Below the pieces are notes generated by a model. The model worked only from the letters and a program-made list of their open reading frames with translations, did not search any database and was not told the DNA's origin. From NCBI GenBank assembly GCA_009391275.1, contig VEXF01000052.1, positions 1 through 6,990 on the forward strand: DNA of 6,990 nt, given 5' to 3'. The position numbers and the translations under genes were made by a program. Positions 6,671-6,990 of this stretch are shown here, in pieces (position 1 is the stretch's first letter; each line of letters opens with the position of its first letter). This stretch comes from SAR202 cluster bacterium AD-804-J14_MRT_500m. GTDB lineage: Bacteria > Chloroflexota > Dehalococcoidia > UBA3495 > GCA-2712585.

Positions 6671-6676
6671 AGGAGG
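6671..6676 (+). promoter_or_regulatory. Strong ribosome binding site of the selenocysteine peroxiredoxin gene
   Basis: AGGAGG lies 5 bases before the ATG at 6682. It is the strongest ribosome site in the window and fixes the start of a gene that a standard caller would miss because of its internal TGA. Confidence 0.8.
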
Positions 6677-6681
6677 CCCTT

Positions 6682-6990
6682 ATGGCACAGCTATCTATTG
6701 GAGACGCGGCTCCGGATTTCAACCTACAGGATTGCCATGGCAACAATGTGCAGCTCCAAGATATGCGCGGGAAGAAAGTTCTGCTCTATTTCTTCACAAG
6801 CCCCGGCGGAGGTAATTGAACACGAATGGCTCTCGGGTACCGAGAACATTCTCAAGAATTTGCATCCAAGAATCTAGTTGTTTACGGGATTAATGATAAG
6901 GACGCAGAAAGCGCCAACCAATGGATAGAGAAAGAACAATTACCTTTCAGTATCCTGTTAGACTCTGATCGCAGCGTCGGGATTTCTTAT
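6682..6990 (+). CDS. Selenocysteine-containing peroxiredoxin, BCP/AhpC-TSA type (3' end beyond window; in-frame TGA at 6817-6819)
   Basis: The first 103 codons of a thioredoxin-fold thiol/selenol peroxidase that would reduce hydroperoxides in the cytoplasm. Residues 3-38 follow the BCP pattern: IGDAAPDFNL, then DCHGNNVQLQD, then RGKKVLLYFF. Codon 46 is TGA, exactly at the peroxidatic cysteine. The frame continues as TRMALGYRE, matching the CTxxAxxFRD block of BCP proteins, then LVVYGINDKDAES (65-77), LPFSILLDSDRSVG (87-100), typical of the family's second half (strand beta4 and the LPFxLLSD segment). A hairpin at 6824-6851 fits a bacterial SECIS, so TGA is read as selenocysteine. Oddities: the PxxxTxxC signature becomes TxxxGxxU (T39, G43), the BCP resolving cysteine (five after the peroxidatic one) is L51, and the only cysteine seen is C18. 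Alternatives are a nonsense mutation of TGC/TGT or a sequencing error; the hairpin and open downstream frame argue against both. Gene calls ending at the TGA would give a false 45-residue peptide. Confidence 0.85.
6817..6819 (+). other. Recoded UGA codon (selenocysteine, residue 46)
   Basis: TGA in the frame of ATG 6682, preceded by GGGN and followed by T, at the place of the active-site cysteine codon in peroxiredoxins. The same frame has no other stop through base 6990. Recoding is inferred from motif position plus the adjacent hairpin. Confidence 0.8.
6824..6851 (+). promoter_or_regulatory. Bacterial SECIS element (bSECIS) within the coding sequence
   Basis: The RNA can fold as a lower stem GAATG/CATTC (6824-6828 with 6847-6851), an internal loop (GC opposite A), an upper stem TCTCGG/CCGAGA (6831-6836 with 6840-6845) and a GUA apical loop (6837-6839). 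All eleven pairs are Watson-Crick. The loop begins 18 bases after the UGA and its first base is G, both as described for bacterial SECIS elements, which bind the elongation factor SelB. The three-base loop is at the short end of the described range. Confidence 0.75.

Follow-up and report, generated by a model that had tools for sequence, protein, structure and literature searches.

Selenocysteine (Sec) peroxiredoxins of the Pfam family PF00578 are recognised by the motif TxxU, or PxxxTxxU in its longer form (PMC13188914, Table 1; PMC2398784, Table 2; PMC1088965). The first of these tables, which holds 119 families and subfamilies, also places UxxC, UxxS and UGC peroxiredoxin-like proteins, SelL-related proteins, PrxU and Prx-SUH under peroxiredoxin or thioredoxin-like domains, and gives the motif GxxU for other proteins, not under PF00578. 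Here we describe a gene at the end of a stretch of 6,990 nucleotides (the window, i.e., the whole stretch analysed) from SAR202 cluster bacterium AD-804-J14_MRT_500m, contig VEXF01000052.1. Judged by its frame and its Pfam matches, the gene (6682..6990, + strand) is of the selenocysteine peroxiredoxin-like kind; the window contains its 5' portion, the first 103 of roughly 153 codons, and its codon 46 is a TGA (6817..6819, + strand) that almost certainly directs Sec insertion. It shares with the Sec peroxiredoxins of the TxxU type the Pfam family, the fold, Sec at the peroxidatic position and a UGA within the gene, but the subfamily to which it belongs has Gly instead of Thr at position -3 and Thr or Ser instead of Pro at position -7.

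The preliminary description of the window had read a frame from the ATG at 6682, with AGGAGG five bases upstream, a TGA at codon 46 and 57 further open codons, and all of these are as described. The Shine-Dalgarno-like AGGAGG was read directly at 6671..6676 (+ strand), and GGAG or AGGAGG likewise lies upstream of the start in several homologues. The frame reads MAQLSIGDAAPDFNLQDCHGNNVQLQDMRGKKVLLYFFTSPGGGN-U46-TRMALGYREHSQEF... with a single TGA, stays open to 6990 and runs past the window end. The read-through protein, with U treated as C, matched Pfam AhpC-TSA over residues 6-103 (4.5e-24), that is, on both sides of the TGA, and Redoxin over residues 7-103 (8.1e-16). Of the relatives that extend across the site, the closest is P0002, which has Arg at its residue 46 and matches the entire query with 77% identity, so the homology of the frame is no matter of chance. 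Past 6990, where further disabling mutations had been considered, none was found: the database protein P0068, which we infer to be encoded on the window's own contig of 46,837 bases, starts at residue 62 and extends the frame, free of any further stop, to residue 153, the usual length of the family.

Conservation of the TGA was followed through 26 distinct loci including the window, of which 25 have TGA at codon 46 and one has TGT. A scan of a one-genome-per-species collection with two peptide patterns drawn from the window's side of the family, which was the scan that covered other phyla, returned five loci, all in Dehalococcoidia or Chloroflexota and all with the TGA. Among 250 genomes of the order the gene was present in 23 (E <= 1e-35), the five loci of the collection included, each with exactly one internal TGA, at codon 46. 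A class sample of 393 genomes added L049, with TGA, and L050, whose TGT (Cys) is the one sense codon at this site read at the DNA level.

The protein databases present the same site as a break. Out of 106 database relatives, 84 begin at Met49, directly after the TGA, as an open reading frame (ORF) of 105 amino acids, and five stop at Asn45; annotation therefore usually cuts the gene at exactly that codon. The expectation that the gene would be annotated as a 45-residue fragment was thus right about the cut and about these five records, while the product reported for the most part is the ORF from Met49. Four more records are other fragments or one distant relative, and the remaining 13 span residue 46. 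Eight of these are full-length proteins with Cys and, together with L050, they are the Cys homologues aligned to U46 that had been anticipated. Against strict conservation weigh the other five, which are known as protein records: Arg in P0002 and Trp in P0006, P0011, P0013 and P0014, the last of which has no N-terminus. Our guess is that the Trp rows could be explained by gene calling with TGA as Trp, and the Arg and Trp variants as a whole may come from gene calling under another code, from sequencing error or from real loss.

Downstream of the TGA lies a hairpin resembling a selenocysteine insertion sequence (SECIS; 6824..6851, + strand), with an upper stem at 6831-6836/6840-6845, the loop GUA at 6837-6839 and a lower stem at 6824-6828/6847-6851. 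The lower stem is not conserved, and some relatives have one, e.g., L045 and L073-L075. The bSECIS model, as set out in PMC13188914, has a loop of 3-9 nucleotides (nt), a stem of 4-16 base pairs (bp), a G in the first two loop positions, a spacing of 16-37 nt and a minimum free energy of <= -7.5 kcal/mol, and the window hairpin satisfies all five criteria. In the 25 Sec rows, G comes first in a 3-nt loop in 22 (not in L073, L074 and L077), and the energy is reached by 24 (not by L085), with L088 reaching it through another fold. The window hairpin folds with z -2.17 (54 nt), and with z -2.22 against synonymous recodings of the same peptide; a wider stretch of 101 nt around the TGA was unremarkable (z -0.46). 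Synonymous recoding of all 25 Sec rows gave a mean z of -2.1, 15 of them beating 95% of their recodings, and the core stem lay within the minimum-energy fold in all rows except L085 and L088 (23/25).

The upper stem is conserved and covaries in the 24 sequences of the hairpin alignment, which, like all the counts in this paragraph, comprises the Sec sequences with L049 left out. Over a stem of seven columns, 97.0% of 168 cells are paired, 26 cells have double-sided changes and the covariation score reaches 0.371, compared with 0.123 for shuffles and at most 0.107 when the partner is slid by 1-3 columns; for each of these three measures, 0 of 500 shuffles were as high. The number of pairs with double-sided changes (3 vs. 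a shuffle mean of 2.2, 119/500 as high) and the number of further pair types (7 vs. 5.7, 58/500 as high) do not stand out. RNAalifold recovered the inner five pairs unaided. At codons +4 to +9, pairs of sequences with the same amino acid share the codon in 75% of cases vs. 36% expected from pooled codon use with relatedness ignored; the corresponding values are 39% vs. 37% upstream and 46% vs. 41% further downstream, and some single codons elsewhere than in the hairpin are also high. The codon of Tyr53 is TAC in 24/24. Compensatory changes run across codon borders: in every one of the 24 sequences, base 2 of codon 51, which is T, A or G, is paired with base 3 of codon 54, and the outermost pair changes from C-G to G-C in the clade L079-L089 (11 and 11 sequences, with two unpaired, including the window). 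In L073 and L074, Arg54 is replaced by Gln and the pair is retained. Amino-acid changes linked to the pairing were thus seen at codon 54 in these two loci and at codons 50, 51 and 55 in the clade L079-L089, as if the RNA pairing had shaped the protein sequence at these codons. The alternative raised earlier, TGC or TGT in close relatives without a conserved hairpin, is not so, as the TGA stands in nearly all loci and the hairpin is conserved. In the Cys gene L050, a weak stem of 5 bp persists (z -0.73), perhaps as a relic. On the - strand of the window, the hairpin also scores as terminator-like (6829-6847), likely as a by-product of the palindrome.

The protein has a predicted peroxiredoxin fold in which residue 46 sits within the first long helix (44-55), near its start. 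U46 aligns without a gap with the Cys in the known structure of the peroxiredoxin 2ywn, in line with the earlier placing of the TGA at the peroxidatic position. In the structure comparison, the 26 top-ranked entries were all peroxiredoxins or thiol peroxidases, one being fused to a nitroreductase. Arg122, nearly invariant in the family, aligns with an Arg of 2ywn that we take to be catalytic. The PxxxTxxC/U motif is absent: Gly43 replaces its Thr in 34/34 aligned members, including 25/25 Sec rows at position -3, and residue 39, in the place of its Pro, is Thr or Ser in 33/34 and Pro in P0012. The active site was called uncommon at the outset, and it is indeed GGxNU and not PxxxTxxU. The Sec is followed by T-R-M or T-R-H in 24 of the 25 Sec rows and by T-V-H in L049. 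Residue 49 is a conserved Met in the window's clade and His in a second clade (L079-L089, L049 and L050). No resolving Cys is conserved, and in 12/25 Sec members the protein is free of Cys.

Comparison with the neighbouring families sets the subfamily apart. The gene had been assigned to the BCP type, and the fold and the position of the Sec agree with this; the defining motif and the model score do not. Against the BCP/PrxQ model (NCBIfam PRK09437, cut-off 140), four proteins score 76.6, 71.3, 79.4 and 46.4 bits, the first value being for the 103-residue part only, and the subfamily differs from BCP/PrxQ in having neither PxxxTxxC nor a conserved resolving Cys. The 1-Cys AhpE structures (1xxu, 1xvw and others) show 25-26% identity in the structural alignment, but the subfamily has Sec instead of Cys and has lost the motif. 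Unlike the UxxC and UxxS peroxiredoxin-like selenoproteins, it has no Cys or Ser at +3. The window protein scores 17.9 bits with the PrxU model (cut-off 270) and 26.1 bits with the SelL-related model (cut-off 120); Prx-SUH was not among the entries of this family-model scan.

In a rebuilt tree, the subfamily formed one clade (100/100) on a long branch; this tree held 17 of the 34 subfamily rows, with L058, L061 and L096 left out and L055 also absent. The first tree, which contained the misextracted rows L058 and L061 and carried a long-branch warning, had joined the subfamily to the Sec peroxiredoxins L091-L093 (99/94). This join is gone in the rebuilt tree and is not claimed here. Classical PxxxTxxU peroxiredoxins with an in-frame TGA were also observed: L091 (G004), L093 (G244), L094 (G095), L095 (G034) and L097 (G062). 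The genomes G004, G244 and G095 carry such a copy together with a GGxNU or GGKTU form. In L092 (G002), the motif Pro has become Thr and the Thr before the Sec is kept. L098 (G110) is an in-frame TGA gene for a peroxiredoxin-like protein (...VRGVFUPNC...) and a candidate selenoprotein of the UxxC type.

The selenocysteine machinery, proposed earlier as a check, was sought in the genomes of five relatives. tRNA-Sec (70.8-72.9 bits, cut-off 47), SelB and SelD were over the cut-off in all five, and SelA in four, with a partial match in G003. Among 14 control genomes, tRNA-Sec exceeded the cut-off in five, SelB in two, SelA in one and SelD in two, so tRNA-Sec alone is the least specific marker. Each SelD gene of the five relatives (L035-L039) contains one in-frame TGA, and SelD is therefore probably a selenoprotein itself. 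Across the order, SelA (E <= 1e-30) occurs, among the matches listed, in 20 of the 23 genomes with the gene, G003 having the partial match; of the three genomes with no listed SelA, G417 has tRNA-Sec and SelB, G552 has tRNA-Sec only and G565 has neither. The association of the gene with SelA is uninformative at this level, because 199 of the 247 genomes searched in the order have SelA over the cut-off. We had expected the genome of the Cys form, G028, to lack the machinery. SelA was not found there, but SelB and tRNA-Sec are over the cut-off, and the genome therefore gives no support for a Cys form in a genome free of the machinery; G095, which has the TGA form, has SelA and tRNA-Sec. L050 of G028 combines the Cys codon and the weak hairpin with SelB, tRNA-Sec and no SelA found, and is maybe a recent Sec-to-Cys change.

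The TGA could in principle have arisen by nonsense mutation or by an erroneous base call in a Cys peroxiredoxin, from whose TGT or TGC, or from TGG, it is one change away. Such an origin is scarcely credible and is in practice refuted by the family-wide conservation of the TGA, which includes an assembly of 2,855,855 bases in a single contig (G004); moreover, there is no other stop in the full-length relatives or in P0068, the protein is conserved on both sides of residue 46 and the hairpin is conserved too. A change of the genetic code, with TGA meaning Trp (or Arg) in these genomes, would account for the four Trp records and the one Arg record and is equally hard to believe. In the four neighbouring genes of the window, TGG occurs 33 times and TGA never within the frame; TGA thus does not stand for Trp in the window's contig. 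One of these genes terminates in TGA, as do five of the 23 genes from the order (L079, L083, L084, L086 and L089) and L050, whose own codon 46 is Cys.

It has also to be considered that UGA serves as a stop as well, with a protein of 105 amino acids re-initiated at Met49 and the hairpin regulating the switch. The frequent calling of the Met49 ORF and the conservation of Met49 in the window's clade fit such a pair of products, but the second clade has His at residue 49, and a product from that residue would lack both the catalytic residue and the strands with which the fold begins; we regard two products as very improbable. The protein might instead, e.g., work as an oxidoreductase of thiols or selenols, carry selenium or a metal, or sense redox state. 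Such a different job bears on the peroxidase step alone and is a possibility of some weight, if the less likely one. It is opposed by the Sec at the peroxidatic position, by the alignment of Arg122 with 2ywn and by the peroxiredoxins and thiol peroxidases that fill the structure matches.

Accommodating the TGA in 25 of 26 loci, the hairpin with its compensatory changes and the Cys homologues, the selenoprotein reading proposed from the outset is strongly supported, and we regard a selenoprotein of peroxiredoxin fold, decoded by SelB and a SECIS, as highly likely. What is observed is the gene structure, the conservation of the TGA and the hairpin, the Cys homologues, the machinery of the relatives and the predicted fold. 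The apparently split gene is very probably intact, coding in uncultured bacteria for a small redox protein that contains selenium. Its product would have about 153 residues and a peroxiredoxin fold, and the relatives of its host are Dehalococcoidia (Chloroflexota). The ribosome is proposed to read UGA 46 as Sec because SelB, carrying Sec-tRNA(Sec), would bind the hairpin, whose apical loop follows the UGA at a distance of 17 nt. Placed close to where the first long helix begins, the Sec would then most likely reduce organic hydroperoxides or H2O2. The mechanism would be of the 1-Sec type: the selenolate would attack the peroxide, and the resulting selenenic acid would be resolved by a thiol from outside the protein, either thioredoxin or a small thiol, since the family lacks a conserved resolving Cys. 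That the protein acts as a peroxidase, and not in another selenol or thiol redox role, is moderately favoured, and external resolution is a little more probable still.

The gene's neighbours within the window code for an MmgE/PrpD protein, an amidohydrolase, an MFS transporter and an S9 peptidase. An Rfam scan of the window gave no match at the gathering score, and a tRNA scan of the window found none. When the neighbourhoods of L006-L010 were compared, no neighbour was common to all; L008 and L009 have one upstream ORF in common, which presumably resembles 3-isopropylmalate dehydrogenase. A 17-base DNA pattern run on viral contigs gave five matches (L001-L005), which were dropped because they had no active-site motif and because, by estimate, about as many were expected by chance.

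The new part appears to be the subfamily: a peroxiredoxin fold with the Sec in the right place and the classical Pro and Thr gone. The main texts of PMC13188914, PMC2398784, PMC9402790 and PMC12013277, which include two marine selenoproteome papers and the 2026 inventory, nowhere contain 'Chloroflex', and we found no literature joining a selenoprotein with SAR202. Among the matches listed, no title or beginning of an abstract described the subfamily, figures, supplements and subscription papers lying outside this search; the 253 peroxiredoxin sequences of PMC2398784 may include members of it. The fuller proposal is evenly balanced: a deep-branching, uncatalogued selenoperoxiredoxin subfamily of Dehalococcoidia with the motif GG[GNK][NT]-U-T, in which Sec would be the older and dominant form and, in 12/25 members, the only redox side chain, the protein would act as a 1-Sec peroxidase whose peroxide site is built in a different way, and the SECIS would have driven amino-acid changes (codons 50, 51, 54 and 55 covarying as RNA pairs).

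The hairpin, visible at the level of codons, makes a good training case for SECIS finding. The finding extends the known selenoproteins by a subfamily from relatives of Dehalococcoidia, hidden so far because gene callers cut the gene at the UGA. Should the protein prove to be a peroxidase, both the Pro and the Thr of the classical motif would be dispensable, in Sec and Cys forms alike, and the textbook requirement for them would become testable.
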